From a virus: 32,483 bases of DNA. Of the stretch, positions 1-26,331 are shown piece after piece. Numbering within the stretch: the stretch's first letter is position 1; each line of letters opens with the position of its first letter. Below the pieces are notes generated by a model. That model worked only from the letters and a program-made list of their open reading frames with translations. It ran no database searches and had not been told where the DNA came from. The stretch lies in the IMG/VR virus record IMGVR_UViG_3300024999_000274, positions 1 through 32,483 of that record, one strand, 5' to 3'. Made by a program: the position numbers and the translations under genes.

Positions 1-1448
1 TGCTTAGGTTCTACCCTCCACTCCCGCCTCTTCACCGTCCCGCCCTCGATACGGTCCAAGCGCTCCCCCTGCGTGAGGGTGTAGCCCATGTCGTCCAGAA
101 GGGCTGCGACCTCGGCGTCCGGGGTCTTCCCCTCTTTCACCACGACCCGACCGGCTTTCAGCCAGTCCTGCGCCCGCTTCTCGGCGACGTTCTCGGTCGG
201 TGCGGGGATCGCCACGCCAGGCTTGGAGCCCCCCTGCATGGTGACCGGCTCGGTCGGCGCGACCTTCAGCGACTCCAGGACCTTCTTCTCCTGGACCTCA
301 AGCGGGTTCAGCTCGCCCCCTGAGGCGACCGACTCGGCCAGGCTCTCAAGGATCTCGGCCCGTGTCGTCTCCGGCGTCGCGGGTTTCTCGGGCTCGGGGA
401 GGATCGTCTCTCCCGCGTCCAGCTTGTCCAAGGTCTGCGCCTGCATGGTGGTGGCCGCTACGGGGTCGTCGGAGTGGACTTGCGCCGCCAGTGCCTCGAC
501 CTCAGCCTTCTGCACCTCGGGTGCCGCGGTCTCCAGAGCCTTCAGGTCTTCCTGGACCTTGCCTACCCCTGCAGCCTTGGCCGCCAGGTTGAAAGCTGCC
601 GAGGTGCCACCACCCATGACGCCGCCGGTGAGAGCCCCGATGGCCGCCGATTTGGCCACACCCTGCCCTGCGGGCTTGCCGGTGGCAAGGTTCTGCGCTG
701 CTGTCTCCTGGGCGGACTGCGGCATCTCTTCGAGGAGACCCTCGGAGGCCACCCCCCCGGCGACGGCTTTCGCCATGCCTTTCTTGGCAACTTTCTCCCC
801 GCCGGCCAGAGCCACGTCGATGTCGGTGATGCCGAAACGTTTGGCGAGTCGGCCTCCGGCTACGCTGAGAACCCCGGTAAGGGCGCCGCTGCCTGCTGCG
901 AGGAGGGGTTTCTTCAACCCCGAAAGATCCCCGGTCTCCTGCCTGACCTGCTCGGCGGTGGACCCTGCGGAGACCACCCCCTCCCCTGCGGCCGCTGCGG
1001 CCAAGGTCGGGACCCCGGCTTTTATCAAGCCACGAGCCACCCCTGCGCCACCCAGCATGGATGGTGCCGACTCGATGACGGTGTGGGCGATGGTGGAGGG
1101 GTTGCGGAGAGACGCCCTGACCGTCGGCATGAAACCCTCGGCCGCCGCCACCTCGGCGTTTGCCTGCTGCTGCTCGGGGGAGTAGAGGGTGTCCAGATAC
1201 TCCTTGGCCTGTTTCGGCCTGAAACCTACCGCCTCCGCTGCCTTACCCGCGTACCCGCCCGTCACGATGTCTGCCACACCGACCGCCGCCTCAGGCAGAC
1301 CGATCGCTCCCTTGGTCGCGGAGATCAGGGGGTCGGCGACGAAGCGGCGCAGCCGGGAGGGGGGAGCAGCAGGAGCGGCCTCGGGTCCGGCATAGGGGGT
1401 CAGCTTGGGGGCTGCGAGTTCTTCACCTTCGTACGGAGTCAGGGCCAC
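1..1448 (-). CDS. Large Ala/Gly-rich virion (ejection-type) protein, 3' end outside window
   Basis: The frame is open from a GTG start to the left edge, giving 482 visible codons without a stop. GTG is chosen because AAAAGGAG lies just upstream and directly follows the stop of the preceding gene. The N-terminus is Pro/Ala-rich. It is followed by hydrophobic glycine-zipper stretches at about residues 130-165 (SMLGGAGVARGL) and 270-290 (AAIGALTGGVMGGG), either of which could insert in membranes. A segment EEMPQSAQETAAQNL precedes the second one. This arrangement resembles the N-terminal part of very large phage polyvalent or internal virion proteins, which are ejected with the DNA and often carry enzymatic domains further on. 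The C-terminal part that would show any enzyme is not in the window. Position as the last of three helical proteins after the tail genes supports an ejection role. This is inference. Confidence 0.75.
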   Translation of the reverse strand, partial: MALTPYEGEELAAPKLTPYAGPEAAPAAPPSRLRRFVADPLISATKGAIGLPEAAVGVADIVTGGYAGKAAEAVGFRPKQAKEYLDTLYSPEQQQANAEVAAAEGFMPTVRASLRNPSTIAHTVIESAPSMLGGAGVARGLIKAGVPTLAAAAAGEGVVSAGSTAEQVRQETGDLSGLKKPLLAAGSGALTGVLSVAGGRLAKRFGITDIDVALAGGEKVAKKGMAKAVAGGVASEGLLEEMPQSAQETAAQNLATGKPAGQGVAKSAAIGALTGGVMGGGTSAAFNLAAKAAGVGKVQEDLKALETAAPEVQKAEVEALAAQVHSDDPVAATTMQAQTLDKLDAGETILPEPEKPATPETTRAEILESLAESVASGGELNPLEVQEKKVLESLKVAPTEPVTMQGGSKPGVAIPAPTENVAEKRAQDWLKAGRVVVKEGKTPDAEVAALLDDMGYTLTQGERLDRIEGGTVKRREWRVEPK

Positions 1449-2825: not shown

Positions 2826-3932
2826 TTAAGCCCCCGCAGTGTTGACGGTGATGTTCGCTGCGGCGGTCGCCATGGACGCCGTGGCCTGCGCCGCCGCCTT
2901 GGCCGCTTCGATACGGTTCTTGGCGTTGGAGTCCAGGATCTCCATGTTCGCCCTGGCGGTGTCCAGGAAGTTACCGACCCGGGCCTTGAAGTCGTCGATC
3001 CGGTTCTTCACGTCGTCCAGGGCGATCTGAGCGTTCGCCTTGTCCACCTCCAGGTCGAAGCCCGCCTCCTTGATCCTGATCTCATTGGTGACCCGGTGCT
3101 TGTCCAGCTCGGTGTTGACCTTGGCGGTGTACTCGGCGATCCGTGCGGAAGCTTCTGCCACCTCCGCCGCCACCTCCGCCTTGTACTTGTCGACCAGGGC
3201 TGCGACCTGAGCCTGATAGACCTGCACCGTGACCCCCAGGTAGCGAGTGTTGAAGTCGACGTCGGCATTGTGCGCCGCGACCTGCTGCTGCGCGGAGAAC
3301 TGCCAGTTGCTCTTGGCCCAGTCGAAGATGGTGGTGATCAGGTCCCACGCGGTCTGCGACATGTCGAACTGGAACTTCTGCTGCGCGTCCAGCTTGAGTG
3401 CCGAGGTCATGGAGTTGGGGTAGGTGAAGCCCGCGGCGCCGGTGGTCGCGTCGGCGGCCGAGTAGAGATCGCGCAGCACCTGGGTGCGCCGCTCGTAGTC
3501 CCTGGCGTAGAGCGCCACCTGCATCTTGGATGTCTCGACGGTGAGCTTGGTCACCACCACATCGATGTCGTCCGACCCCAGGATGGTGTCGGTGAAGGCC
3601 GAAAGCTTCCCCTTCAGGTTGGTCCAGAAGGTCTCACTCCACATTGCCGTGGTGGCTCCGGAGAGTGTGGGGGCGGCCGGCAGACTGGGGGCGAAGGCAT
3701 CGAAGGTCGCCGCGGACAGGGTCGGGAGGGTCGGGACGACAAGCGAAGGCTTGGTGCCGTCGGCGGTGGCCACTGCGGCGATGCTCAGGTTGGCCACAGC
3801 ACTCAGGGTGGTCATGGTCCAGGTGGTGGCCTGGTCAGTGAGCCTGGCGATGGCTGCGTCGGCGGCATCCTGCAGATGGTCCACGTATGCGTTCATGATG
3901 CCTACTTGATCTAGCGCGTTGAACGTGGTCAT
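2826..3932 (-). CDS. Putative structural/ejection protein with long C-terminal coiled coil, 368 aa
   Basis: No family is recognised. The start ATG is supported by AGGGGGTG upstream, and the stop TAA is fused to the next gene's Shine-Dalgarno. The N-terminal half is Ala/Thr-rich with Pro-containing linkers (SLVVPTLPTLSAATFD). From about residue 215 to the end it is almost continuously heptad-like, with charged Ala-rich helices (KYKAEVAAEVAEASARIAEY, then KNRIDDFKARVGNF, then KNRIEAAKAAAQATASMATA). This predicts a long coiled coil. The Ala-rich C-terminal tail could be amphipathic. It is the first of three consecutive helical proteins downstream of the tail genes. A tail-needle or ejection protein is plausible; neither can be shown from sequence alone. 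Confidence 0.7.
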   Translation of the reverse strand: MTTFNALDQVGIMNAYVDHLQDAADAAIARLTDQATTWTMTTLSAVANLSIAAVATADGTKPSLVVPTLPTLSAATFDAFAPSLPAAPTLSGATTAMWSETFWTNLKGKLSAFTDTILGSDDIDVVVTKLTVETSKMQVALYARDYERRTQVLRDLYSAADATTGAAGFTYPNSMTSALKLDAQQKFQFDMSQTAWDLITTIFDWAKSNWQFSAQQQVAAHNADVDFNTRYLGVTVQVYQAQVAALVDKYKAEVAAEVAEASARIAEYTAKVNTELDKHRVTNEIRIKEAGFDLEVDKANAQIALDDVKNRIDDFKARVGNFLDTARANMEILDSNAKNRIEAAKAAAQATASMATAAANITVNTAGA

Positions 3933-3964: not shown

Positions 3965-4192
3965 TTACCTTAACCGGCGCAAAGACGCAAGGTTTTCCTT
4001 GACTTTCTCTCCGAATCGGTTTAAGGCTTCGCGCCGTGCTCCGCAGCCGCAGTCGTGCCCGGTCAGGTCGGTATAGGCGTGAGCCACGACGTCCAGATGC
4101 ACCACCTCGATTACCCGCGCCACGGCGTCACCCAGTCCTCGATCTCTGCGCTCCGGCCCGGGCCCGGACATTATGTGGTTTTTCTCGATCAT
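3965..4192 (-). CDS. Small Cys-motif phage protein, 75 aa
   Basis: The start ATG overlaps the stop of the upstream Ig-like gene in an ATGA junction, so I prefer it to upstream ATGs in the same frame that lie inside that gene. The protein has a hydrophobic/helical region (AVARVIEVVHLDVVAH) followed by a C-terminal motif HDCGCGARREALNRF. Small phage proteins ending in a CGxC-K/R-RRE-LN motif are common in tail regions; their function is not established. The paired cysteines and His could bind a metal. Translational coupling suggests it is made with the large adhesin-like protein. Confidence 0.7.
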   Translation of the reverse strand: MIEKNHIMSGPGPERRDRGLGDAVARVIEVVHLDVVAHAYTDLTGHDCGCGARREALNRFGEKVKENLASLRRLR

Positions 4193-7100
4193 ATTCTTTT
4201 CATCACCCATGCCACGTGGAGCGCCCCATATTCGACCCCCGACACCGTCAAGGTCTCGAAATAGTTCTCCCATGCCGCGATGTTGAACCATGAGTAGGGG
4301 GAGTACATACCGTAGTTCAGCATGAGGAATTCTTCGACATCGCCGAAGGTGTGACCCACGGCCGCTTCAAGTCCGAAATAGGCTATCTTGATCCGGTAGT
4401 CGCCGTAGGTGTAGATACCCCAGCCGGGGGATATCATGGTCAACTCCGTCCCTCCGGGGGCGTTGGTCATGTAGACCAGCCGGTCGGCTGCTATCTGGCA
4501 GTCCCCCTGCCAGATGTATTGCCAGGACGGTGGTGGAGGCGGAGGCGGTGTGTCCAGGCACCCCTGCGTGCAGATAGCCAAGGTGATGTGGGGTGCTGTG
4601 AAAGTCGCGGAAACCGAGGCGCCTGCCGAGTCCTGCACGGTTACCCCGGCGCCCGTGCAGTAGCACCCCGAACTGCCGCTTATGAACAGCTTCCAATAGG
4701 TCGCGTAGCTCAGGCTGCTGACCGAGATACCGTTGGTCTTCCCGGTGATGGTTGCGGTGTATGACTTGCTCCCACCTGTTACCCGGTACGAGTTATAGCC
4801 GTCAGGCACGATAGACAGGGTACTGACCGGTGTGCAGACAGGCACACCGCAGGCTGATACCGCTATGCTCGCCGTCTTGGCCGGAGAGCTGGAGTCCTTG
4901 ACGACGAAAGCGCTGGAGGGTGCCGAGTCGCAGAACCCGCTCACCACAGGAACAGTCACGGACTTGGCCTGCGTCCAACTGCCGAGGAGGCTGGATAGCC
5001 CCGACGGAGTCCCGGTGAGGCCTCCGGCGACCAGCAGCATGTAGGGCGGTTTCCCCCCGGCCCAGGACAGCGTGCCGGAGGCGAATGACATCGACAGCGC
5101 AGACGTGTCCGCCTGGATCGTGATGTAGCCTATGATCAGCGTCGAGACCGCGGCGACCCCGTCCGCCGTTTCGGTGGCTGTGAAAGCGACCCAGTGGCTG
5201 GCGGGGAAGGCGGTCGCGGCCGAGCCGAAAACCAGATATGTCGAGAGCACCCCATTGTGCAGCCCGTGGTCGAACTCGATAAGGCAGTTCTCCGAGTAGC
5301 CGATCAGCTGGAAAGTCAGCACCCCGTCGCGCTTGCGCTCGATGTATCCGTCCAGCTCCAGGGTGAGATAAAGTCGAGCGACGAACGGTGCCGATACCTG
5401 CATCGGCAGCTTCAACGTGGGGGGCTCGACGCTCTGGGCGCAGGTCTGTGTCGTGGTCACCGCCGCGGACTGGTCGTACTGGTCCGAGATGGTGGCGCTG
5501 ATCACGTAGACCCCGGCGTCTATGGGGACGAAGGAGGTGCCGAGCTGATCGGTGTTACTCAGGTACGCCATGTTGGGACCCGGCTGGGTCATGATGGCCC
5601 AGAGCAGGGTGAGTGGTGTCCCGTCGGCGGCCAGGCTGGGGCCGGTGTAGGTAAACTCCATCGCTTCACCGATCCGCCAGGGCTGCCCACCCACTCCACT
5701 ATGACTAGGCACCGTCACAGTGAAGCTGGGGGTGGGCATCACAGGCTTGGCTATGGTGATGGTGATCGTGGCAGTATTCGAGGTCTTGGAAATGCCGTCC
5801 ATGGTCTCCACGACGTAGTAGGTCAACTGATAGGTGGCGTGCCAGGTGTCGGAGAACGCAGTGGTGAGCACATCCCCTGTGACCGCAGGGGTCAGCCCTG
5901 CGGGCGGGGCACCCAGATAGTACACCAGCACTGAGCCGGTCCTGGCTGCGGTGCCACGCAGGTGCTCGTAGATGGAGTTCCGGAGCGCGAAGGGTACGAA
6001 GATCTCGAAGGAGGCCGCCGTAGGAGCACCGACAGGTGCCTGGACCGTGATGGTTACCAGGGAGGCTACCGACTCGGCGGAGACGCCGTTCGCCGTCTCG
6101 ATGGCAGAGAAGCTGAAGGAGGTGGCGCCGCCCCCCGCACCGTCCCAGAAGAACTCGGCGGAGATGGTCCACACACCTCCCGAAAACACGGGGGAGCCGA
6201 TCAGGTTCACCCGGCAGCTTGTCCCGAGCGAGACAATGCGGAACGTCATGGTGGAGCCCGCACGGGCCGGTGTGGCGGTCAGGGTGAAGATCCTGTTGTC
6301 GCTGAACTCGAAGGGAAATAGTGCGGCCGCGGGGTTCGCCTGGACGGTGGGTTTGGGGGTCACCAGGTTCAGCGTAGCGACGTCGGCCGACCCCCCGGTG
6401 CAGGCACCTCCCGAGGCGCTGAAGTCGAACGAGCCGAACGAGTCCGCCTCCCCACCCGTACAGGCACCTCCCGAGGCGCTGAAGTCGAACGAGCCGAACG
6501 AGTCCGCCGACCCCCCGGTGCAGGCACCTCTCGACGATGTGACAGAGACCTCCTGCACGAACACCGCGGACCCGCCGGTACAGGCGCCCCCGGAGGTGTC
6601 GGCGTAGAGGTCGTCGTCGAACATGAACACCGCGTTGCCGCCGGTGCAGGCACCTCCCGTCGATGTGAACTCCCCGTTGGGGTCTCCTTCCTGACCTTGT
6701 GCGAACAGCCACGGGCCGCTGTAGACGTCGGGTGCTGGGAGAAACCGCCCGTTGCCGGCCTGGGTTATGGTGAAGCTGGTCAGCCCGTAGCCGTTTAGCG
6801 TGACGGTGAAGCCGCCGATCCACATGGCGGGGTCGATCTGGTCCAGCACGCTCGGGTCTGTCCAGGTCGGCGCTTGCGCCACCAGGTCTTCGTAGGTCAC
6901 CAGGAACGGGGTGACGCTGCACACCCCCGTGTTGGCCGAGGTCATGACGACCGGCTTCCCGGACGCCCCGCCGACCAGGATGACCGTGCCGGTGTCACCT
7001 ATGACTAGGTTTGAGGGGGTGTGCGGGGTCGTGTCTTCCGGGTCGTCGAAATAGATAGGGCCGAAGGTGCCGGTCACCTTGTCCCAATGGTTGGTGATGA

Positions 7101-7323
7101 AGATGTAGTCCTGCGGCTCCGGGGTGAGGTCCAGGATCTGAACCACGTCGAACTCAGGCGTGAGCGCCAGGACGATGCGCACCAGTAGCCTGTCGGTCGC
7201 GCCTTCGTAGAGGGAGGCGAAAACGTTGGGGCGCACCGCCCCGGCTACGGCCTCGTATCTGGCCTTGGCGTAAGCGATAGCCGCCCCCAACTCGACTGAG
7301 TCGGTCAGGGGGCGCAGCAGCAT
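4189..7323 (-). CDS. Large adhesin-like virion protein: Cys repeats, Ig/PKD-like domains, poly-Pro
   Basis: The start chosen is the ATG overlapping the previous stop (TAATG). An upstream in-frame ATG would place 70 Arg/His/Gln-rich residues inside the 141-aa gene and looks spurious. Length is 1044 aa. Residues 1-220 form a virion-type N-terminal domain (MLLRPLTDSVELGAAIAY...). Residues about 222-309 hold five copies of a GACTGG motif spaced 20-22 residues apart. Then follow several beta-rich, Ser/Thr-rich domains of Ig type; one near residues 545-625 resembles a PKD domain. A PPPPPPP linker lies near 925, followed by a Trp/Tyr-rich C-terminal domain with Cys clusters (GCYCTG, CTQGC). Ig-like modules in phage virions usually mediate weak adhesion to cell surfaces or glycans. 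Neighbours are a tailspike and a tail protein, so a tail- or capsid-exposed adhesin is inferred. There is no signal peptide. Confidence 0.8.
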   Translation of the reverse strand: MLLRPLTDSVELGAAIAYAKARYEAVAGAVRPNVFASLYEGATDRLLVRIVLALTPEFDVVQILDLTPEPQDYIFITNHWDKVTGTFGPIYFDDPEDTTPHTPSNLVIGDTGTVILVGGASGKPVVMTSANTGVCSVTPFLVTYEDLVAQAPTWTDPSVLDQIDPAMWIGGFTVTLNGYGLTSFTITQAGNGRFLPAPDVYSGPWLFAQGQEGDPNGEFTSTGGACTGGNAVFMFDDDLYADTSGGACTGGSAVFVQEVSVTSSRGACTGGSADSFGSFDFSASGGACTGGEADSFGSFDFSASGGACTGGSADVATLNLVTPKPTVQANPAAALFPFEFSDNRIFTLTATPARAGSTMTFRIVSLGTSCRVNLIGSPVFSGGVWTISAEFFWDGAGGGATSFSFSAIETANGVSAESVASLVTITVQAPVGAPTAASFEIFVPFALRNSIYEHLRGTAARTGSVLVYYLGAPPAGLTPAVTGDVLTTAFSDTWHATYQLTYYVVETMDGISKTSNTATITITIAKPVMPTPSFTVTVPSHSGVGGQPWRIGEAMEFTYTGPSLAADGTPLTLLWAIMTQPGPNMAYLSNTDQLGTSFVPIDAGVYVISATISDQYDQSAAVTTTQTCAQSVEPPTLKLPMQVSAPFVARLYLTLELDGYIERKRDGVLTFQLIGYSENCLIEFDHGLHNGVLSTYLVFGSAATAFPASHWVAFTATETADGVAAVSTLIIGYITIQADTSALSMSFASGTLSWAGGKPPYMLLVAGGLTGTPSGLSSLLGSWTQAKSVTVPVVSGFCDSAPSSAFVVKDSSSPAKTASIAVSACGVPVCTPVSTLSIVPDGYNSYRVTGGSKSYTATITGKTNGISVSSLSYATYWKLFISGSSGCYCTGAGVTVQDSAGASVSATFTAPHITLAICTQGCLDTPPPPPPPSWQYIWQGDCQIAADRLVYMTNAPGGTELTMISPGWGIYTYGDYRIKIAYFGLEAAVGHTFGDVEEFLMLNYGMYSPYSWFNIAAWENYFETLTVSGVEYGALHVAWVMKRI
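6391..6660 (-). repeat. Tandem ~60-bp coding repeat (five GACTGG units)
   Basis: Five copies of a block encoding (S/T)GGACTGG(S/N/E)A recur with spacings of 66, 60, 60 and 60 bases. Two adjacent units (about 6406-6450 and 6466-6510) are almost identical over 45 bases at DNA level; both encode ADSFGSFDFSASGGACTGG. Outer copies diverge in the spacer but keep the GACTGG core with one Cys each. The exact 20-codon period and the DNA identity indicate recent in-frame expansion by slippage or unequal recombination. Confidence 0.9.
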
Positions 7324-7748
7324 TAGGCTGGCTCTCCCCCACCGGGGACGTTGCCCAGCTTGTACTTGAGTGTGATGGTGAGCTTGTCCCCGTTGTTCAC
7401 CGGGGTGTAGCCGGAGCCTGGGAGCAGTTGCTCGAAGATTATGATGTCGTTGTGGTAGACCGAGTACCCCTTGATGGTCTTGTTCACGGCGTTGGTCAGG
7501 GGGCCAGTAAAAGTCCAAACCACCGGGTCCCACTCTACAGTGGGGACCCCGCCTGAAAGCCCTACTGTATAGTTGATTATATCGAGGTCTACGTCGTCAT
7601 AGCCCCCGCCCTCTGCCAACTCTCGGATTACCTGACCATCTTGGAGCGCTCCCGAGTCGGTGAAGAGGTCGATGTAAAACATCCCAGACAGCAAGTAGGT
7701 TTCGAGAATGTCCTGCCCGCCTGCGTCCGTTGTCCTCAAGTTCGCCAT
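7323..7748 (-). CDS. Tail/virion structural protein, 141 aa, family unknown
   Basis: The start ATG has a strong AAAGGAGA site overlapping the stop of the tailspike gene. The stop overlaps the start of the 1044-aa adhesin-like gene (TAATG), implying translational coupling. The protein opens MANLRTTDAGGQDILETYLL and is acidic and beta-rich with many aromatic residues. It has no signal peptide, membrane segment or cysteine. I do not recognise a family. Lying between a tailspike and an adhesin-like protein, it may be a small baseplate or linker subunit that anchors one of them. That role is inferred from position only. Confidence 0.75.
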   Translation of the reverse strand: MANLRTTDAGGQDILETYLLSGMFYIDLFTDSGALQDGQVIRELAEGGGYDDVDLDIINYTVGLSGGVPTVEWDPVVWTFTGPLTNAVNKTIKGYSVYHNDIIIFEQLLPGSGYTPVNNGDKLTITLKYKLGNVPGGGEPA

Positions 7749-7758
7749 GCTGTCTCCT

Positions 7759-10167
7759 TTAAGCCGTGAACCCGGCGCCGTCTTTCCAGACCGTGCCGTT
7801 CCAGGTGATCGCCTTGTTCAGGGTGGTGTCGAAATGCATCTGGCCGGTCTTGGGGGCCGCGGGTCGTAACGCTGTGGTGGACGTGCCGAGAGTCTGTGCG
7901 TTGCTGTAACCTGCGGTGAAGGTCTGCGCATTCAGCCGGATGCGCCCGGCCGGCTGGTTGATGACGGTGTTGGCCACGCTGGTTGCGTCGTTGATCCTGA
8001 CCTCATAAGTTCCTCCCGACAGCGCTTTGAACTTGTTGCCGGATATCTCGGTGTCGGTCGTAAGGTCCATGTAGATGGCGTTGGTGACGTTCGCCAACTC
8101 GAACCTGTTGTTCTTGATACTGGTCCCGTCCACGAGAAGATGGTTCGGATGCGAGCCCTCCGACGCGTACCCACTCATCCGAATCTGGTAGCTGCAGGTG
8201 TCAACGTACCGGGCCAGAAACTTGTTGTCGTGGATATTGGTGTTCATAGCGTTGAACATCAAGATGCCACCCCACTCCAGTATATTGTCGGCTATAACAG
8301 TGGTTTTGGCGTTGTAGATTTCCAGGTTGTATTTTATGTTGGACTGGCCGCGCATGATCCATACGACGGAGCCGTCCGTTACCGACTGGCCGATAACCTT
8401 GGCCAGCCCTGCTACACCACCAGTAGCGATGCTGGGTGCCGATGCAGCCGTGGTGCCCGCCGTGGTGCACTCCCAGATCGTGGTCCCGGTAGACCACTTG
8501 ACCAGCGCACCGACGGCGTAAGCGGTCAGGTTGGCGCGGGTTGCCGATGCCTGGGTATGCCAGAGGTGGTTCCCGGAGACGATGGTGTCCTGCTTCACCG
8601 CATTGTCATCGAGGCCGGTAGCGTCCCACTCGGCCTGCGACGGGGTAGGGTTGGTCCCCTCGTAAAAACCTGCCGGGGCGTCCCAGTATTGGGCGATGAA
8701 TACGTTGTTCACGCCGTTGTTGTAGCAGAAGTTATTGGTGATTGTTGTCTTGTAGCCTCCAAAATCTAGGTAGGTTTCGCCTACGTAGATACCATAGTAG
8801 TTCTTGAAGCAGTGGTTTCCATCCATCACTACGTTCGACGCTGCCCTAAGTCCTATACCTGCATCGTGCTTGTTCTCGTAGAACCAGTTATTCTTGATGG
8901 TGATCCCTGACACTTTGCCGCCGTAGAAACCCTTCTTCCCAGCATCGGTCCCTGTGTTATCCTCGAAGGTGTTGTTGGACCCGAGCGTCGGCACACCCAT
9001 GCTGTTGGCGGTCACACGGGTGACGTAGTTCCGCCTCACGATACAGTCGTCCCCCGATACGCTTATCCCGTAGTTGGAGTTTTTGGACCAGTCGAACACA
9101 CCACCCCATCCGGCAGTTTCGTAGCCCCAGCTCTGGTTGTATCGGTTGCCGTCCACATAGCAATCCTCAATCAACATCCGGTCGCCGGACGCCTGAATGC
9201 CAGTAAACGATGTGTCATTCCCGGCGACTGCGTAGTCTTTGAACTTTATCCTTAGGCGCCTGAGGGTGATATCGTCCTTGTTCGCCTCAACTTTCCCGTC
9301 TACGACATAGAGTCTGCCCGTGCCCTGCACTACCCCGCCCGCGGCCAGCGACTGTATCGCCTTGTTGATCTCCACTTGGTCGGAAGTCCCGTCAACGCTC
9401 CAGAACTCGGGCTCAGCGTACCGCAGCCCTGTGACGGTCTGGCCAACCCCGATACAGCCTGCCGACCCCTCAAAGGTTCCGGCAATCGCCGTACTCCCCG
9501 CGCCATCCAGCTTGCCGCCTGGGACGATCTGAACCAGAGGCGCATTCAGAGTCGCGGGCACAGTCCCCCAGACCTGTGAGATGCGTAGAGTCTTCCCGGT
9601 GGCTGCAGCGACATCGTCGGCCGCCTGCAGCGTCAGGTACGCTCCAGCATAGATCCGCTCACCCCATAAAAGGTTCAGCCGCACTTTGTCCACATACGAC
9701 ATAAGCCCGTTCACCGTCTCGGTGACCACCGCGGTGGCTGTCCCTACCACCTCCAGGATGCTCGCCAGGAGCGCATCGAAAAGCGACAGGGTCTGAGGCT
9801 GCAGCGCCTCCATGGCGGCCTTGGCTGCCAGGAGCGTAAGGTCCCCCTCCCCCTCGGTGACCCGGATGTAGAAAGGCTTGGCGGGACCGCCCGCGACGCC
9901 GCCCGGGAGCCGCACCTTGTAGAGCGTGGCGATCTCACCGCGGTTGTTGGGCCAAAGCTCGACGGTGAAGTGCCCCGCCTCGTCGGTGGTCACCGTGATG
10001 ATGTCGCCTACGATCAGTTCACCGCCCTCGTCGGCTGCGTCAAACAGTGTGACCGGCTGGCGGTTCGCCGCGTCCACCAGTTGGAACGTGACCTCAAGAC
10101 CTGCCTTGACTACGCCATCCGGTGTCTTGACCGGGTCGCCGACATTGTGGAGTGTGCGGGTAACCAT
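7759..10167 (-). CDS. Tailspike / tail fibre with parallel beta-helix and carbohydrate-binding-like insert
   Basis: 802 aa; ATG preceded by AGGAGA. Residues 1-105 look like an Ig/FN3-type attachment domain (VTFQLVDAANRQPVTLFDAA... FTVELWPNN). About 330-720 is a right-handed beta-helix of the pectate-lyase type, with ladders such as IEDCYVDGNRY, IKNNWFYENKH, MDGNHCFKNYYGIYVG and ISGNKFKA. Inserted at about 545-605 is a TAYAVGALVKW...WECTTAGTTA...VTDGSVVW block. It matches a small module common in phage fibres that resembles chitin/carbohydrate-binding modules. The C-terminus (MHFDTTLNKAITWNGTVWKD) is a frequent fibre end motif. Such spikes bind and often cleave surface polysaccharide; I cannot assign catalytic residues. 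It follows the hub/nozzle gene, as expected for the main spike of a short-tailed phage. Confidence 0.88.
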   Translation of the reverse strand: MVTRTLHNVGDPVKTPDGVVKAGLEVTFQLVDAANRQPVTLFDAADEGGELIVGDIITVTTDEAGHFTVELWPNNRGEIATLYKVRLPGGVAGGPAKPFYIRVTEGEGDLTLLAAKAAMEALQPQTLSLFDALLASILEVVGTATAVVTETVNGLMSYVDKVRLNLLWGERIYAGAYLTLQAADDVAAATGKTLRISQVWGTVPATLNAPLVQIVPGGKLDGAGSTAIAGTFEGSAGCIGVGQTVTGLRYAEPEFWSVDGTSDQVEINKAIQSLAAGGVVQGTGRLYVVDGKVEANKDDITLRRLRIKFKDYAVAGNDTSFTGIQASGDRMLIEDCYVDGNRYNQSWGYETAGWGGVFDWSKNSNYGISVSGDDCIVRRNYVTRVTANSMGVPTLGSNNTFEDNTGTDAGKKGFYGGKVSGITIKNNWFYENKHDAGIGLRAASNVVMDGNHCFKNYYGIYVGETYLDFGGYKTTITNNFCYNNGVNNVFIAQYWDAPAGFYEGTNPTPSQAEWDATGLDDNAVKQDTIVSGNHLWHTQASATRANLTAYAVGALVKWSTGTTIWECTTAGTTAASAPSIATGGVAGLAKVIGQSVTDGSVVWIMRGQSNIKYNLEIYNAKTTVIADNILEWGGILMFNAMNTNIHDNKFLARYVDTCSYQIRMSGYASEGSHPNHLLVDGTSIKNNRFELANVTNAIYMDLTTDTEISGNKFKALSGGTYEVRINDATSVANTVINQPAGRIRLNAQTFTAGYSNAQTLGTSTTALRPAAPKTGQMHFDTTLNKAITWNGTVWKDGAGFTA

Positions 10168-11677: not shown

Positions 11678-12304
11678 TTAAACCAGGTAGAGGGGGTTCG
11701 GTGCGAAAGAGGCGTGGCCTCGGCAGAGCCTGCGGAAAGCCTGCTTGCCGGCCGGCACGTAGACCTTGTTGTAGCGCGCCTTGTGGTCGGCCGCCTTGAC
11801 TGGGTCCTGCAGCTCGCGGTCGTGGTCACCAAAGGCGAGGAAGGCAGCCCACTCGACCGGCGCCAGGTGCATGTCGTCGGGGAGGTCGAAGTCTCCCGAG
11901 GCGCTGAAGGCGATCCGGCTCTTGCGCCAGGTGTAGAGGTCGACGGTGTAAACGGCGTCCGGGGTCGGGTAGAGCGTGACCATGCCATGCTCCAGATCGG
12001 TCTGCCAGGCATAGGGCTGCCCCTCGCCGGTCGTCGGTGCCAGCCCGGAGAACTTCTCCAGTTGTGCTCCGCTGATGGAAACGCGCAGCACCTCGATGAT
12101 GCGGGTCGAGAGCGCGTAGGATGCGGTGCCTGCCGCGGTGGTCAGCTTGTAGGTCGAGGCGTCGCGGAAGAAACCGGTGTCCTTGCAGAACTGGTCCTGC
12201 CCCAAGGACAGGAAGTGGAGCAGACGCTTGTCGGACCACCCGTAGGGCGAGACCTTATCGTTTAGCACCTCTCTCAGTTCTGCAAGAACCTCGGCTCTAG
12301 TCAT
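11678..12304 (-). CDS. Head-tail adaptor protein (gp4/gp11-like)
   Basis: 208 aa. The ATG overlaps the upstream stop (ATGA), with AGAGGAAGGA as ribosome site. The opening MTRAEVLAELREVLNDK...WSDKRLLHFLSLGQDQFCKDTGF is the helical start typical of podoviral adaptor / tail tubular A-like proteins. The middle carries the beta-rich ALSTRIIEVLRVSISG ... GQPYAWQTDLEHGMVTLYPTPDAVYTVDLYTW pattern. The helical end (AAFLAFGDHDRELQDPVKAADHKARYNK) also fits the family. These proteins form a 12-subunit ring below the portal. Length matches the family (about 165-200 aa). Its place before the nozzle gene strengthens the call. Confidence 0.88.
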   Translation of the reverse strand: MTRAEVLAELREVLNDKVSPYGWSDKRLLHFLSLGQDQFCKDTGFFRDASTYKLTTAAGTASYALSTRIIEVLRVSISGAQLEKFSGLAPTTGEGQPYAWQTDLEHGMVTLYPTPDAVYTVDLYTWRKSRIAFSASGDFDLPDDMHLAPVEWAAFLAFGDHDRELQDPVKAADHKARYNKVYVPAGKQAFRRLCRGHASFAPNPLYLV

Positions 12305-14779: not shown

Positions 14780-15673
14780 TTAGGCAGCCAGTTGAGCTGC
14801 GAGTTTTGCGCCTGCCTCGAAGGCTGCGTCGAAATCCTGCGGGTCCGGTTCGGCGGTGACCGAGGTCCTGGTGGTGGCCGGCTGTTTCATTTTGTCCAGC
14901 TTGGCGAGGCGCTCGGCCTCCGCCTTCTCGGCTGCTGCCTTGGCTGCGGAGTCGTCCGCGGGTGCCTGCTTGCTGGTCGACGCCTTGTAGTCGGTGAGGA
15001 ACTTGGCCACATCTGCCGCGCTCCCCTCGTCCAGCACCTTGTTGTAGGCGGACTGGAGGTAGGCGGGCTGCGACTCGATCCACTTCTCCACGTCGGGGAT
15101 GATGGTGAAGGCGTCGGCGTGCTGCGCGAGCAGCGCCGCATTGAACTGCGCCTGGGCCGTCTCGGCGGTGGCGGCCACCACCGGGGCGATCTGAGCCTGG
15201 ATGGGCTTCAGGATCTCGGCGAACTCGGCCTTCAGTTTCTTGGCCTGCTTTTCAAGGAGCGCGTTGACTGCGACCGCGTGGGTTCCCCAGTTCTTCTCCA
15301 AGTCCTCCAGCGCCGCCTTCACTTCCGGGGTGTCTTCCTCGGCGGCTGCCGGGGTCTCGGCCTTTGCGGGCTCGGCGGCCTTCAAGGCCTTGGCTACCGC
15401 CTCTCCAATCTCGGCGGCGGAGGCTGCGGGCGGCGGGGGTTCGACTTTCGCGGGGGGCTCTACTTTCGCTTCCGGCTCTGCTTTGGCCTCAGGTTCCGCC
15501 TTCACTTCCGGCTCGTCGACTTTGGCCTCAGGTTCCGCTTTGGCTTCCGGCTCTGCCTTCGCTTCCGGCTCGGGCTTCACCGCCTCGTCGAACGCCGCCG
15601 CGAACGCATCCTCTTCGAGCAATTCCGAAACCGACGTCTCCAGTCCTTCGCGTGCCGAAGCTCCCCCTGCCAT
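14780..15673 (-). CDS. Capsid scaffolding protein, 297 aa
   Basis: The ATG has GGGAGGG at suitable spacing and lies about 55 bases downstream of a sigma70-like promoter. The protein is rich in Ala, Glu and Lys with almost no aromatic residues in the first 120. Residues about 33-80 are a low-complexity tract of EPEAKA/EPEAKV units, ending PPAKVEPPPP. The middle and C-terminal parts are helical (ALLEKQAKKLKAEFAEILKP; SAAKAAAEKAEAERLAKLDK), and the end DPQDFDAAFEAGAKLAAQ could be the capsid-binding helix. Composition, helical prediction and position between portal and major capsid genes are typical of scaffolds, which guide shell assembly and then leave. The repeat tract is recent at DNA level, with near-identical TTCCGGCTC and TCAGGTTCCG units. 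Confidence 0.85.
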   Translation of the reverse strand: MAGGASAREGLETSVSELLEEDAFAAAFDEAVKPEPEAKAEPEAKAEPEAKVDEPEVKAEPEAKAEPEAKVEPPAKVEPPPPAASAAEIGEAVAKALKAAEPAKAETPAAAEEDTPEVKAALEDLEKNWGTHAVAVNALLEKQAKKLKAEFAEILKPIQAQIAPVVAATAETAQAQFNAALLAQHADAFTIIPDVEKWIESQPAYLQSAYNKVLDEGSAADVAKFLTDYKASTSKQAPADDSAAKAAAEKAEAERLAKLDKMKQPATTRTSVTAEPDPQDFDAAFEAGAKLAAQLAA

Positions 15674-18029: not shown

Positions 18030-19493
18030 TTAATATCCTACGTAGCTGTCGCCGGTGCGCTGGTGGGTGGTGCGGCGGGTGGCTGGGTCATAGGTGCTCC
18101 GCACGTACTCCGCAGCGTTGTAGCGCTTGCTCAAAATGAACATGGTGCCGTACTGGTCTGCATCCACTACGTGAGAGCAGCGGTGGCCTTTATCGGGCGA
18201 GTCTTTGTACCGCCCTTCGGCCCCCTTCACCCTGACATAGCGGTATTTACTGCGCAGGCCTTCTATGAGCAGTGCGCAGCGCCTATCGTAGATGACCCCC
18301 GGCTCTCCGTCAGGCCACATGTTTCGGAAAGGCTCGTCGAGCGCGTTAATGCGCTTCACAGGATCGTTGGTCTCCGAGGGCTTAACCACGTTCCCCGACC
18401 CTGGCTTATCGGTGACGTACAGCTTCTTCAAGAGCTTATAAATACTGCCGTCGTCGGTTTCATTTTGTCTCGTCCAAGACGGATCTCCCACGAAAATCAA
18501 GGGGTTATGGCTGAAGTATGCCGAGATCATAGGCTGCATCAGTGTCGATACGAAGGTGCGAAACCCCATCTCGAAACCGGTGGCTTCCCGCAACTTCCGC
18601 AGGCGCCCGTCGAGGCCGAGTTGCATGAACACTGCGGCAGGATTCCGCGCGCCGTCGATCCCGACTACAATGGGGAGGTGTTGGTAAATTGGCAAGTCTG
18701 TCTGCACGCGCTTGTCGTACTGGAAGGATCGTTCGTAAACTGGCTTCCCGAACTGGCTCTTGGAGTAGAGGTTGTGAATGTTGGTGTCGATCCAGTCCTG
18801 GGACTTACCCTTCATCAGGTCGGTGTAGTAGTCTTTATGTAGGTACTGCAGGTTCTCCGCTTCCGGCGACATCGCAGACGGCTGCATGAACACGGCCGCC
18901 GGCACTACAGTGGTCGGCTCGTCCTCTTTCTGTGGCAAATGCTCCATCAGCTTGTACCAGTCGGAATCTATCTCAGGGGGGTTGGTCGCGCAGATCATGC
19001 CACTCCAGTACTCCGGCACGTCCTGGATTCTGGGGAATCGGCGGAGGCGGGTTTGAGCCTCAAGTACCAAGGTTAGAGGGATCTCACGACACTCTTCTAT
19101 AAAGATTCCGGTAAGTTGCAGGCTCAGGAGGCGCTGGATGTCCTCAGGACTGTCAAGACTTCTGAAGAGCCATTCGGCGTGAACTTCCCCGAATTTAAGA
19201 GTGTAAATGAAGTTGGACACACTCCACGACCCGATCCCCGGAGGCAACAACTCCAGCACCGACCGGAGCAACGTGTCCGTCAATTGGCTGCGCGTGTTCC
19301 TGGCGAAGACCCACCTGCTGCGGCGGACCCCGTCGGGGCATGGAGGCATCTGGATGCAGCGCCGCAGCGCCTCCATCACGCAGCCGGTTGTCTTACCTGA
19401 GCCGTAAGGTCCCTTGACGACCCGGAAGAACGAATCGTCGAGCATAAATTTCCGGATGACGGGGCTCGGGGTATAGTTGATTCCTTCGGCCAT
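18030..19493 (-). CDS. terL: Terminase large subunit (packaging ATPase/nuclease)
   Basis: 487 aa. The ATG overlaps the stop of the GIY-YIG gene (TAATG). Walker A is GPYGSGKTT at residues 28-36. The Walker B-like strand is GIFIEEC at 129-135, where Glu stands in place of the usual Asp. A coupling-type motif CATNPP follows near 168. The RNase H-like nuclease part begins at VVGIDGARNPAAVF with its first acidic residue, then IFVGDPSW, then SHVVDADQYGTMF with the last Asp near the C-terminus. It pumps DNA through the portal and cuts concatemers. No recognisable small terminase lies upstream. Base composition is lower in GC than the portal just downstream. Confidence 0.93.
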   Translation of the reverse strand: MAEGINYTPSPVIRKFMLDDSFFRVVKGPYGSGKTTGCVMEALRRCIQMPPCPDGVRRSRWVFARNTRSQLTDTLLRSVLELLPPGIGSWSVSNFIYTLKFGEVHAEWLFRSLDSPEDIQRLLSLQLTGIFIEECREIPLTLVLEAQTRLRRFPRIQDVPEYWSGMICATNPPEIDSDWYKLMEHLPQKEDEPTTVVPAAVFMQPSAMSPEAENLQYLHKDYYTDLMKGKSQDWIDTNIHNLYSKSQFGKPVYERSFQYDKRVQTDLPIYQHLPIVVGIDGARNPAAVFMQLGLDGRLRKLREATGFEMGFRTFVSTLMQPMISAYFSHNPLIFVGDPSWTRQNETDDGSIYKLLKKLYVTDKPGSGNVVKPSETNDPVKRINALDEPFRNMWPDGEPGVIYDRRCALLIEGLRSKYRYVRVKGAEGRYKDSPDKGHRCSHVVDADQYGTMFILSKRYNAAEYVRSTYDPATRRTTHQRTGDSYVGY

Positions 19494-20380
19494 TACCTGT
19501 TACTCCAGTCGCGGATCGGGGTAGTCAGCGCCTTGTGCATGTCCCACTTCTTCATGCGCTGCGCAAGAGTCTCAGGTTTAAGCCCGTACTCCCTGGCCCA
19601 ATCCGCAAGCAGCTTGCGCTCGCCGTTGTACTCGATGAGCGCTTTCTGGTTTGGCTTTGTTAGCGCCTGCTCTACGCTCCAGCCTGCGTCTAAGCGCTGC
19701 CGTATCGCCCACATGCTGATGCCTGTAACCTCCGCCCACTCTGTGATAGTACGTTTGGCCTCATCCAGCTCTAAACGGGTGTGATCCTCTCGGGCCGACT
19801 GAATCCTGCTCAGGATCACCCTATTTGCTGGGTCTTCGTAGTGCTTCCGCCTGATCTCGCTTTGCAGTGCTCTGGTGGCCTGTGTGCGCCGGCTCCCAGT
19901 TTGCCGCGCTACCATAGCTTCGCGCCACTCAGGATCAGCGGCGACAGCCTGCATCTTAACGCTGATCTGCCGCTTGACAGTATCCGGCCGCGTACTGCCT
20001 GTCTTGGAGGCGCTCATGTTCGCCACCCAGGCTTGACCTGCCTTAATTTTACGGAGCGCCTCTTTCTGTGCTTCGGACCACACAAGCCCTGAGTTTCGCC
20101 CTGCGGAGGGGCTGAGATTGTACGCCGGCTTGAGTCCGTCGATAAACCGCTGTTCGTAGAAGAGTAAATCTTCGCAGGAGCAGATAACCAGAGGTTCAAA
20201 GACGAATGAAGACTCTCCGTATCTGGACCAGGCGGCTTGGAGATACCTGTTACCGTGCTTACGCTTAGTCAGTTCGTTCCTGTGCTGCGCCCACCGAGTC
20301 TGTAGGCGCTTGGAACTCCCCACATAGATCTTCCCGTTCACAGTGTTCCGAATCTGGTATATGCCGCTTTTTGTCAGCAC
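19493..20380 (-). CDS. GIY-YIG homing-type endonuclease
   Basis: 295 aa with a GTG start after TTTTAGGAGG. The N-terminal GIY-YIG domain has SGIYQIRN (GIY at 6-8), KIYVGSS (YVG at 19-21), Arg29, His33 and the catalytic-type Glu76 in FYEQRFIDGLKPAYNLSP. The order and spacing match I-TevI-like enzymes. The middle (residues 95-215) is Arg/Lys/Gln-rich with SEAQKEALRKIKAG and SASKTG stretches, resembling NUMOD DNA-binding modules. The C-terminus has two copies of a helix-turn-helix-like unit: ITEWAEVTGISMWAIRQRL...GWSVEQALTKP and LADWAREYGLKPETLAQRM...WDMHKALTTP. It is a free-standing mobile nuclease rather than an intron enzyme, since no intron is visible. Its target may be terminase genes of related phages. 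Confidence 0.92.
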   Translation of the reverse strand: MLTKSGIYQIRNTVNGKIYVGSSKRLQTRWAQHRNELTKRKHGNRYLQAAWSRYGESSFVFEPLVICSCEDLLFYEQRFIDGLKPAYNLSPSAGRNSGLVWSEAQKEALRKIKAGQAWVANMSASKTGSTRPDTVKRQISVKMQAVAADPEWREAMVARQTGSRRTQATRALQSEIRRKHYEDPANRVILSRIQSAREDHTRLELDEAKRTITEWAEVTGISMWAIRQRLDAGWSVEQALTKPNQKALIEYNGERKLLADWAREYGLKPETLAQRMKKWDMHKALTTPIRDWSNR

Positions 20381-22306: not shown

Positions 22307-25300
22307 TTATATGCCTGCGCAGTGATAGAAAAGCGTCGATCCAGCGGAACTAGAGGTGAATAGGAATTGTGCCGTGTTTGTGGACGGGACCACACGAATC
22401 ACCCCTATCGAGTTATCGTTAGAGTTCACCTGGCATCCATAAACGGTCGTGAAACCTGTTGTTATCGTGCAAGCAGTCACGCCAGTGCCGCCCAGTGCTA
22501 TAGCCCCATCGTTGTCATTCCCGGTGATGGTGCTGCCTGTCCCACAACTGGATAGTGTCGGGGCGGTGCCGCCTGCGCTTAAGACTCTGGCCGCTGTAAT
22601 TGCGCCACCCGCCGATATTGACGCAAGCACAGCCGCACTGCTATTGCGCCATTCCGTGAGGTTGGCGCTTTGAGACGATGCACCCTGCACAATCTGGGCT
22701 ATTTCAGCAGCAGCACCGTTTTTAACGTGAAGCTTAGCACCTACCACGGATTGAGCATCTGTGACCCCCATACCGATGCCTATATGCGATGTTGCGCCGG
22801 TTGCCAGGTTAAGGTTGCCACCCGTCGCGCCATCTGCTGATGTGGCGTCGATGATAGGCATGGGGAAACCGAGGATGAACCGAACCGCGTATTTGTTCGC
22901 GGCCCCGACTTGCGTGCTATCTAGCAGCCACCATTGCCTATTGCCGGTCCCGTTATACCCCAACAGTTGAAGCAAACCGTGAGTCTGCGTGGGCGAGCCG
23001 GAAACGTACCCCCTGCCTGACAAAAGAACACCCTGGCGCTGGGGTGTTTGGTCAGTGGAAAACGCAGTTAGTCTCCCATTCGATGTGACGTCGTTTCCAG
23101 CCGTCACATCGCCGAATGTAGTCAGTAGTTTCATGCTCACGTTGGTGATAGTCCCCGAGAATGAACTGGACCCGATCAGGAACAACTTTCCAGAGTTGGT
23201 GTCAGTATTCAACACCGTAATTTCAGCGGTGTACGTGCCGAGTGCCGACGTGGTAGGGAAAATAGTATTCCCGCCTGCGGCTATAGCTACATCTCCGGCC
23301 GTTCTGCTAGCTAAAGTGAATGATATTTTGTATCGTGCGCCGATGGTGGGCGAACTGCCCCCGGTGTATGAATACGTTGCTGATGTCGATGAGCCAGTAA
23401 TGACCCCGCCAGACCCAGACCATCCCGTTCCAGTCCATCCAGAGGTATAATCGGTGGGGGTGATTAACTCCGACCCATATGAGTAGGCCGTGGTGACCGT
23501 ATTCAAAGCCCCGCCTGCCGTTAATCTGGCAACGGTGGTATCCACGGCGATAGTACCGCCGCTTTCACTCAAACCGTCGCCAGCAGTAAATGTGCCTGAC
23601 ACATTGGTTAACTGGCTTCCGTCGATAGCAGGGAGCTTGCCGTCACCGTCAAGTTTCACTATTTGGTTCGCCCCTGTACCACTGTTGAGGGTTAGCACAG
23701 GAGTTGTGGACGTGTCCGCAACAGATATATCTGTATTAGCCGAGGTGACGCTGGTAACAGATCCACCGCCGCCCGAATCAGCCGTGAGAATGTCCGTCCA
23801 TGACTTACTGTATGTGCCGTCCGTAATCTGGTTCCCGCCTAAAACAGTCTCTGTTGTCCTCCCGGCGTTATCCCGGAAGTTTTTGGTCCCGGTGCTGGCG
23901 TCTTGGATTGTTCCAGATGTATTCCCAATCATCTGGTTGTTGGTGATATTGATGTTGTTGGAAACCCCCGATGCAATTGTCACTGCATAAGTGCCATTGC
24001 CATTAAGCCCACCCGCACCCGCACCTATCGTTGCCCCGACTATGTTTACATTATCAATATCAGACCCTATAGAGACACCAGCAGTTGTGTTACTGGCGAT
24101 CTCACCACCAAGTACAGAAACATCACCGCTCACGTTCCCTACTAACTTTACACCATTGGCTCCGTTCAGTAGCGCGTGCGGGGATGTGAAGTGAATACCA
24201 TTAATTGTCCCAGCAGTAGCATCAAGCAACACCCCGTCGCCGCTGCTCGAACTGGCCCATACATTGCTGAACCTGGACCGGTAAACCCCGCCCGTGCTGG
24301 TGGGCGCTAGTTTGATCCCGTTTGTACCGTTGTCGAAGAAACAGTTTTCTGCGTACAGAGAGAATACGTTTTCCGAGGACGACGTAGGATCGATCAGCAG
24401 ACCCACCCCCTGCTGAATGACGCTGGTATTGGTTATCATCAAAGCGGAGGAATTGCGCACCCTGATGCCAGCCGCAGCGGTGTTAGCAGGAGTCTGCGCC
24501 CCCATAAGCACATCATCGATGCCCTGTGAATTATCGCCCCCCTCAGACCTGATTCGGATACCGCCCGCCGCTCCGTCCTGAAACCGGCCATGCTTGATTC
24601 TGCTCACGCTACCCGTCATGATGATGCCGTAATAGTCATGATCCATGAAAAAGTTTTCTATAAACGACTCTTTACCTCGCAGCAGGACGTAAGCGCCTCC
24701 TGTGCGAGTGACTTGGGAATCAAACCCGATATCCTTAACATAGGATTCAGACCCTACTACATCCAGCAAGTCTCTCGTGGCGTGATTCCCCACTAACACA
24801 GTACTGAACCGGCCCGCCCCAACTAAACCCACCTTGGCAGGAAGGGTCAATGTTGCTGACGTACCAATGATGCAATTACCTGCTGGCAACTGGACGTAGC
24901 CAGAGGAAATTGCGTTAGCTTCGGCCTGGATCGTCGCCGTGTCGTCCGTTGAGCCGTTGCACAGCGCGGCGGACTGCACAACTCCCGTCAGTGCTTTTGC
25001 AGCCCCCACTTGCCCCACCGTGATCCCCGTCAGCCCGCTCCCATCTCCCCCCGGCTGCAACGCGCTATTAGCTGTAGCCTGAGCCGCCACAGCCGCCGAT
25101 CTCGCTGTCGAGTCCACCCCGAACCTGCTATCATCCCCCGCCGCTACCGTTCCTGCCGTGATGCCTATGTCGGCTGAGGCTGCGGTGCCGAGGTCTGCCG
25201 TGTCGGCCTTGAGGCTGAGGGCTGTCACCACATCCCCGCCGATCCCGGTTGTGGATGCCTGGGAGCCGGAGGGAGCCATGACCGTAACGCCTATGTCAGC

Positions 25301-25972
25301 CTCTTTTATGATGGTGGCGTCGGCGGGTTCAGCTCCAACTTGACTAGGCGTCAAACCGGTTAATCCAGCACCACTACCTGTAGCATCAAGCTTACCTGCT
25401 AAAGCATCACCTAAAGCAGTGTTATCAGTAGGTGTGCCGGTAAGAGACGAAAAAGAAGGTGAAAGATCAGCCCATGTGCCGTTATCATACAAATACTTTC
25501 CTGATGGCGTACCGGTAGCAGGAACTGAACCCTTCTTTGTAGTGGAGATAACGGGCAACCTGTCACCATCCAACACACCGGAAGTTATGGTGGTTGCCGC
25601 TTGATTGTGTGCAATAGGCGCACGAGAATCAGTCATACGCGGGTCAGAATTTGTCACGAAGGGGTTAGCCGCCCCCGGTGTACCGTTGGTCCCTACTAGC
25701 GCGTCTTTCTCACTGGAGCCGGGTATGTCCAGATGATCATAATTGGCTTCATGACTTGCTACCGATCCACTACCAACAACCCGCCATTTGATAGCACTAG
25801 AAGAGTTAACGAAAGTGGGTACTTTCCCATCGTCGGCTACGGTAAGTTTTCTTACTGGTACACCCTGAATCTTCCCGGAGTCTGTCAATAAACCTGTACT
25901 GGCAGGTACTCCGCCGTATACAGAAAAAGCAACGGCGATAAATACAGCTATCAAACACAACTTCAATCTCAT
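22307..25972 (-). CDS. Fibre-like beta-helix protein with N-terminal signal peptide, 1221 aa
   Basis: I chose the ATG that overlaps the upstream stop (ATGA) and has GGAGGG before it; another ATG four codons earlier is less well placed. Residues 1-24 (MRLKLCLIAVFIAVAFSVYG) look like a signal peptide, which is unusual for a tail fibre. Residues about 25-350 are fibre-stem type (LTDSGKIQGVPV, GKLDATGSGAGLTGL, TVAAGDDSRF). About 350-690 is a beta-helix of pectate-lyase type (VQLPAGNCIIGTSATL, VGLVGAGRFSTVLVG, IVGATIGAGAGG, INITNNQMIGN). The remainder has beta-sandwich and GxxAKLHVKNG-type stretches. It ends in a Cys-containing domain (SSCGTGSTITGNDNDG, STLFYHCAGI) shared by many fibre-like proteins. 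It is probably a receptor-binding or depolymerase-type protein. Export rather than virion assembly is possible. Confidence 0.82.
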   Translation of the reverse strand: MRLKLCLIAVFIAVAFSVYGGVPASTGLLTDSGKIQGVPVRKLTVADDGKVPTFVNSSSAIKWRVVGSGSVASHEANYDHLDIPGSSEKDALVGTNGTPGAANPFVTNSDPRMTDSRAPIAHNQAATTITSGVLDGDRLPVISTTKKGSVPATGTPSGKYLYDNGTWADLSPSFSSLTGTPTDNTALGDALAGKLDATGSGAGLTGLTPSQVGAEPADATIIKEADIGVTVMAPSGSQASTTGIGGDVVTALSLKADTADLGTAASADIGITAGTVAAGDDSRFGVDSTARSAAVAAQATANSALQPGGDGSGLTGITVGQVGAAKALTGVVQSAALCNGSTDDTATIQAEANAISSGYVQLPAGNCIIGTSATLTLPAKVGLVGAGRFSTVLVGNHATRDLLDVVGSESYVKDIGFDSQVTRTGGAYVLLRGKESFIENFFMDHDYYGIIMTGSVSRIKHGRFQDGAAGGIRIRSEGGDNSQGIDDVLMGAQTPANTAAAGIRVRNSSALMITNTSVIQQGVGLLIDPTSSSENVFSLYAENCFFDNGTNGIKLAPTSTGGVYRSRFSNVWASSSSGDGVLLDATAGTINGIHFTSPHALLNGANGVKLVGNVSGDVSVLGGEIASNTTAGVSIGSDIDNVNIVGATIGAGAGGLNGNGTYAVTIASGVSNNINITNNQMIGNTSGTIQDASTGTKNFRDNAGRTTETVLGGNQITDGTYSKSWTDILTADSGGGGSVTSVTSANTDISVADTSTTPVLTLNSGTGANQIVKLDGDGKLPAIDGSQLTNVSGTFTAGDGLSESGGTIAVDTTVARLTAGGALNTVTTAYSYGSELITPTDYTSGWTGTGWSGSGGVITGSSTSATYSYTGGSSPTIGARYKISFTLASRTAGDVAIAAGGNTIFPTTSALGTYTAEITVLNTDTNSGKLFLIGSSSFSGTITNVSMKLLTTFGDVTAGNDVTSNGRLTAFSTDQTPQRQGVLLSGRGYVSGSPTQTHGLLQLLGYNGTGNRQWWLLDSTQVGAANKYAVRFILGFPMPIIDATSADGATGGNLNLATGATSHIGIGMGVTDAQSVVGAKLHVKNGAAAEIAQIVQGASSQSANLTEWRNSSAAVLASISAGGAITAARVLSAGGTAPTLSSCGTGSTITGNDNDGAIALGGTGVTACTITTGFTTVYGCQVNSNDNSIGVIRVVPSTNTAQFLFTSSSAGSTLFYHCAGI

Positions 25973-26331
25973 AACACCCTCCATTCTATGAATTTTTGTC
26001 CTTCATCCCCATTGGTCACAAAAGCTTGTAGTGATTCACCCGTTTCTGCAATAAAAATATCTGGTGAAGCCTGACTATAACCGGAAATAACCCAATCTAA
26101 AACACCATCTATTATCTGAGGAACAACAAGCTCTCCTGTTGCTGTAGTTACTGCGGTTATAACCCCACCGCTACCCAATCCCGGCGGTCCCTGAAGCCCT
26201 CTCGGTCCCGGCAATCCCCCTTTCAGGCCCACCACAACAACGCTTGTGCGGGGATCAATTGTAATGGAGGGGCGACTTTGTTGGATTGCTATCGTATAAC
26301 GAGTGCTATGAATTGTAATCGGGGTTGTCAT
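25969..26331 (-). CDS. Small fibre protein with collagen-like GXY tract, 120 aa
   Basis: The ATG follows TGAGGGCGATTGC, where the preceding stop is part of the junction, and the end overlaps the next start (ATGA). The N-terminus is beta-rich (MTTPITIHSTRYTIAIQQSR). Residues about 38-55 carry GLPGPRGLQGPPGLG, a short run of collagen-type Gly-X-Y triplets, common as a trimerising rod in phage fibres. The rest is a small beta domain. It may be a trimeric linker or shaft that joins the large fibres to the tail. Confidence 0.75.
   Translation of the reverse strand: MTTPITIHSTRYTIAIQQSRPSITIDPRTSVVVVGLKGGLPGPRGLQGPPGLGSGGVITAVTTATGELVVPQIIDGVLDWVISGYSQASPDIFIAETGESLQAFVTNGDEGQKFIEWRVL

Follow-up and report, generated by a model that had tools for sequence, protein, structure and literature searches.

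A glycine-pair repeat family in uncultured phages and its cysteine-bearing form in a probable appendage gene

Introduction

The glycine-rich motif adhesins of T4-like phages (gp38) are built of stacked polyglycine-II helices. RTX beta-rolls and the MpAFP-type calcium beta-helix (3p4g) have Gly-rich turns of about 20 residues each, the calcium beta-roll motif of RTX being GGxGxD(xUx). The virion of an SU10-like podovirus comprises portal, adaptor, nozzle, needle and fibres (PMC9509320). The stretch of DNA analysed here in full (the window, a virus record of 32,483 bases) resembles this last system in its SU10-type adaptor (PF24175), in a match to head-closure proteins and in its portal-like head-tail adaptor, but its array gene and the small gene beside it have no matched counterpart in Pfam or PHROGs.

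The array itself may be like RTX and MpAFP in its Gly-rich turns and turn length, a similarity drawn from a low-confidence model of a relative (L183) with weak Foldseek E-values; the RTX motif is absent from the window units, and families of RTX/MpAFP type gave no Pfam match to the window at E 0.1. From the polyglycine-II adhesins it differs in having glycine pairs that stand three mostly hydrophobic residues apart, unlike long glycine runs. What is new, in our estimation, is one repeat more in an already well-populated class, the repetitive appendage proteins of phages.

Results and Discussion

Genomic context of the array gene

The genes bearing on the array lie on the minus strand in the following order, terminase-like gene first:

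18030-19493, minus strand: terminase-like
15908-18019, minus strand: portal-like head-tail adaptor
13703-14698, minus strand: major head protein
11678-12304, minus strand: SU10-type adaptor (PF24175, E 3.2e-20)
10178-11668, minus strand: head-closure-like
7759..10167, minus strand: right-handed beta-helix virion or tailspike-like protein (PF13229, E 9e-12; phrog_20787, virion structural protein)
7323..7748, minus strand: small partner gene, 141 aa, of a kind found near or beside glycine-pair array genes in many phage contigs
4189..7323, minus strand: array gene, 1044 aa, with ATG at 7323
6664..7323, minus strand: N-terminal domain of the array protein, kept in L001 and L003 (94%) and in L007 (about 38%)

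The sequence-only reading of this DNA had spoken of a virion protein. The upstream context of portal-like, major head, adaptor, head-closure-like and beta-helix proteins, the last encoded just upstream of the small gene and the array gene, points to the array gene as one that probably encodes an appendage of the tail or neck, and it is from this gene order that we infer virion status. The portal-like protein has its best-covered relative among isolates in Pseudomonas phage Rollin (36% identity).

The open frame with the array extends over 1114 codons (4189..7533, minus strand). The start is most likely the ATG at 7323, overlapping the stop of the preceding gene, a junction that recurs in L001. 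The predicted 1044-aa protein has an N-terminal domain at residues 1-220, the glycine-pair array at about 220-325, and thereafter several domains which, judged by eye, are Ig/cadherin-like.

The five repeat units

The array has five GACTGG hexapeptides, at residues 224, 246, 266, 286 and 306, against 0.0002 expected from the protein's own composition. The corresponding units are:

6607..6666, minus strand: unit 1, TSTGGACTGGNAVFMFDDDL, core 6654-6637, followed by 2 extra residues
6541..6600, minus strand: unit 2, DTSGGACTGGSAVFVQEVSV, core 6588-6571
6481..6540, minus strand: unit 3, TSSRGACTGGSADSFGSFDF, core 6528-6511
6421..6480, minus strand: unit 4, SASGGACTGGEADSFGSFDF, core 6468-6451, identical to unit 3 at 50/60 bases
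6361..6420, minus strand: unit 5, SASGGACTGGSADVATLNLV, core 6408-6391

Coordinates and spacing (22, 20, 20 and 20 residues) bear out the earlier description of five units with one Cys in each GACTGG core, units 2-5 keeping a strict 20-codon period. That description had also taken two near-identical units as a sign that the array is recent, which holds in part: units 3 and 4 are close, but every other pair shares 31-39/60 bases, so only one duplication looks recent. TRF reports a 60-bp array at 6382-6534 with 2.5 copies and 87% matches. Within the cores there are synonymous changes (TGC/TGT, ACC/ACG), and the residues between cores vary (DDDLYA, QEVSVT, GSFDFSA).

Neither the array gene nor its repeat, which the first reading had not recognised, is matched by any model, repeat families included, in Pfam, PHROGs or NCBIfam, and sequence searches of the PDB gave chance hits only. 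DNA and protein BLAST against isolate phages, with the whole array gene, its array by itself and three relatives as queries, and against plasmids, with the array as query, gave no repeat-relevant match, low-complexity masking being able to conceal the repeat in such searches. In open-access papers, no description of the repeat was found.

A repeat family in uncultured phages

The window array belongs to a glycine-pair repeat family spread through uncultured phages. A search for related arrays, which the sequence-only reading had proposed, returned further arrays of period 20 in viral contigs, roughly [ST]-G-G-x-x-x-G-G-[AS]-A. The family motif, with a period of ~20-22 residues, is [FY]-x-[VY]-x-[AS]-[ST]-G-G-x-x-x-G-G-[AS]-A-x-[VL], and the consensus of 78 units runs aromatic or hydrophobic, S/A, S/T, G, G, three residues, G, G, A/S, A, T/A/S, V/L. 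Viral contigs were scanned at the DNA level for GG-x3-GG-[SA] recurring with a period of about 60-66 nt; arrays were then accepted if one ORF held at least 3 units of [GRDSNT]G-x3-[GA]G-[SAENG], spaced 18-25 residues apart, with linkers that are not Gly-rich. The five window units fall within this definition. Many Gly-rich low-complexity false positives of the first DNA scan were removed by linker composition, a filter that also overlooked four true arrays. With a stricter pattern, 12 stretches were found in viral contigs, 8 of them passing the array filter; bacterial and archaeal genomes (257 Gb) yielded 21 stretches with this stricter pattern, of which 0/21 passed.

The same repeat is present in L019, L064, L067, L077, L089, L115, L131, L138 and L143, as well as in L147, L169, L180-L183 and L185-L188, arrays beyond the close relatives being identified by motif, period and gene partner, not by alignment E-values. 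The array carrier of L089 has a laminin-G/ConA domain, the only clear ConA-like domain among the carriers scanned against Pfam, and that of L187 matches a tail-fibre PHROG. The family recurs in many uncultured phages, and none of the models searched in Pfam, PHROGs and NCBIfam captures it; with a profile for the repeat together with its partner gene, annotators could spot what is probably a fibre module among the dark matter of viral sequences. The repeat is also a clear target for structure determination.

Several smaller observations were made on these contigs. The array proteins of L064, L115, L143, L180 and L185 resemble one another in their last residues, a short tail that is acidic and rich in Leu/Ala (examples are AIALLLAA, AELLLLLEAA and EEFLEVLRAA). 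In L056 the next small gene (3351..3746, plus strand) has a single GG-x3-GG-like unit (ITSSKGAVFGGTASI) at its C-terminus, which suggests that neighbouring genes may hold such units one at a time. For L113, a possible fusion between an array and an SU10-type adaptor found no support (Pfam E 0.027, below the cut-off; BLASTP E 0.25).

Orthologues and copy number

Viral contig L003 is 93% identical to the window up to the array and ends (at 14848) inside unit 2, as if the repeat were a natural place for an assembly break. A more distant orthologue lies on the 62-kb contig L007 (G002), with an N-terminal domain about 38% identical, the same neighbour gene (61%), an array at the same position and, after it, the start of a further domain. 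Its array has 6 units as counted by script and a seventh, degenerate one (MIGGLTLGS) recognised by eye. In G008 (L019), a separate gene of 294 aa consists mostly of the same repeat.

The unit number therefore shifts between distant orthologues, from 5 in the window to 6-7 in L007, yet is stable in one sampled lineage: L181, L183, L186 and L188 have 13 units each, and the L188 protein, 77% identical to that of L183, aligns with it without a gap. The earlier expectation of a variable unit number agrees with the orthologue pair, whereas the constancy at 13 indicates that rapid change is not general.

The small partner gene

A profile of the small gene was built from four phages (window, L007, G008 and L183) and found homologues in L067, L077, L089, L143, L147, L182 and L185 with E 3e-29 to 1.5e-41; in those loci the small gene is upstream of the array gene, and in several directly adjacent to it. 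In the window it is likewise directly adjacent (7323..7748), this member having itself served to build the profile. With contigs chosen by array pattern, the small gene was found in 12/16 filtered array loci versus 6/114 others (Fisher p 1e-9), and four of those six (L064, L115, L138 and L180) proved on inspection to carry arrays missed by the filter. Over the viral pattern scans, again of contigs chosen by array pattern, it is near the array gene in 16/20 array loci. This co-occurrence supports the arrays being one family.

As to what the small protein may be, two likenesses were noted. The first is to GP4 fibre I protein gp80 (PF23140), also a small phage structural protein: profile similarity is weak, occurring in 2/13 members with a best E of 1.4e-4, and does not reach the curated 27-bit cut-off (19.5 bits and E 0.0013 for the G008 member, no match for the window member). 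The second is to the 'tail fiber rope protein' of cyanophages S-SSM7 and S-SCSM2R (SSSM7_109 and SSCSM2R_110), which match the small-gene profile at 1.8e-29 and 4.7e-27 and are encoded among baseplate and tail-fibre genes. They differ from the small gene in being frames of 337-346 aa over which the matched parts are spread out, and no array was seen in their flanks, unlike in the window. A PDB profile search with the small-gene family gave no phage fibre chain. On the basis of the sub-threshold gp80 match and the matches in cyanophage baseplate and tail-fibre regions, the small gene and the array gene may be regarded as a putative appendage module.

The cysteine position

The sequence-only reading had treated the regularly spaced cysteine as the key residue, which the wider comparison does not support. 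Relatives keep GG-x3-GG and the period, and have mostly V, T, L, A or I at the Cys position (over 78 units V 18, T 14, L 11, I 9, C 7, A 7, S 7; in G008 mainly V). Among the 168 units outside the window, cysteine lies within the glycine-pair triplet in 7 and at the window's position in 3, all three from L007 (GGGCVGG, GGMCLSG, GGACVGG), the triplet register in this count being off by one in L181, L183, L186 and L188 (GAT for ATA) with no effect on the Cys tally. The position is thus Cys in 5/5 window units, 3/6 counted units of L007 and 0/162 elsewhere; both units available from L003 also have it (2/2). A ladder of cysteines is accordingly unsupported at family level, and on these counts the residue belongs to the lineage of this phage and does not define the family, across which it is replaceable. 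Uniformity within one array is not peculiar to Cys, since other arrays have their own favoured triplets without it, such as MVL in L131 and LTT/VTT in L077. Since the cysteine has persisted while the unit flanks diverged, its retention in this clade might nevertheless mean a clade-specific role. The disulfide, metal or cofactor functions raised in the sequence-only reading would be conceivable, though unlikely, in this phage and its orthologue. As a variant supplied by nature, the Cys form could be used to ask whether such stalks depend on Cys there.

Predicted structure and probable role

An AlphaFold check of the window array gave an unusable AF2 model (pLDDT 40). For the 13-unit protein of L183, AF2 predicted a recurring pattern in which every 22 residues contribute a long strand and a short one (mean pLDDT 60, pTM 0.58). 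VIA-align of this model placed MpAFP (3p4g) first among many beta-helices (Z 22.3, rmsd 3.1, 278 residues). Foldseek gave no PDB match for it at E 1e-3, and against viral models nothing convincing, the sole match below 1e-3, to a poxvirus protein, having 5% identity and a TM-score of 0.13. Weak as these models are, a beta structure is the likeliest fold for the array.

We think it fairly probable that the window array is a lineage-specific Cys form of a phage repeat of 20-22 residues, which would serve, within an appendage protein of the tail or neck, as a spacer or stalk of beta structure and adjustable length. Anchoring to the virion would fall to the N-terminal domain of the array protein, perhaps aided by the small partner protein, and the array would extend the protein, the Ig/cadherin-like domains coming after. 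The glycine pairs would probably form tight turns, with the three residues between them, Cys included, placed in one short strand and the residues after them also in strands, so that the cysteine would sit at a position otherwise taking small or hydrophobic residues. Unit number would change by occasional in-register duplication.

It is rather unlikely that the array is instead an unstructured Gly-rich linker, a flexible spacer with no regular fold retained for its length only. The glycine content, the low AF2 confidence and the lack of a clear fold match would suit such a linker, as would the tendency of AF2 to over-predict beta-solenoids for perfect repeats (PMC11795689). Conservation is position-specific, however, across carriers that are otherwise unrelated; the period of 20-22 residues is kept, hydrophobic residues occupy the places between and after the glycine pairs, and 13 units stay in register between proteins only 77% identical, all of which argue against such a linker. 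A receptor-binding or adhesive module, in which each of the units would offer a loop to a glycan of the host, might be read from the variable residues between cores and from the linkage to the ConA-like domain in L089. That domain is confined to one Pfam-scanned carrier and dedicated domains flank the arrays, and we regard this role as very unlikely.

A further possibility concerns the cysteines of this clade: those of successive units, if aligned, could be linked by disulfides, in one chain or from chain to chain, or could coordinate a metal, and so stiffen an extracellular fibre. Their presence in all five units, although units 1, 2 and 5 have fallen to 31-39/60 bases and the cores have synonymous changes, fits a functional ladder, as do the two units of L003 and the occurrence at the same position in L007. 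Yet half of the counted L007 units have no Cys, uniformity alone can arise by array homogenisation (compare MVL in L131), and phage fibres are in general assembled in the reducing cytoplasm. Such a ladder is distinctly unlikely, and the bolder proposal that this clade has turned the repeat into a regular Cys ladder along the fibre, a redox-switchable or covalently stiffened stalk with its length tuned by unit number, is the least probable of all.

Other features of the window

Directly beside the terminase large subunit gene lies a homing endonuclease-like gene (19493..20380, minus strand; phrog_314, E 1.2e-26), with further matches to homing, GIY-YIG and HNH families. RNA families and tRNAs were searched for in the window and none was found. 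A second tandem repeat region (15435..15572, periods of 18, 39 and 57 bp) is situated inside a minus-strand ORF (14780..15673) that separates the portal-like gene from that of the major head protein. An ORF of 1225 aa (22307..25984, minus strand) has no PHROG match. The protein encoded at 3..1448 (minus strand) is part of a larger one cut by the window edge, related to phrog_30335/11358 and more weakly similar to virion RNA polymerase and DarB-like families. Finally, phrog_20787 matches a short near-C-terminal region of two different virion proteins, encoded at 7759..10167 and at 26637..29174 (both minus strand).
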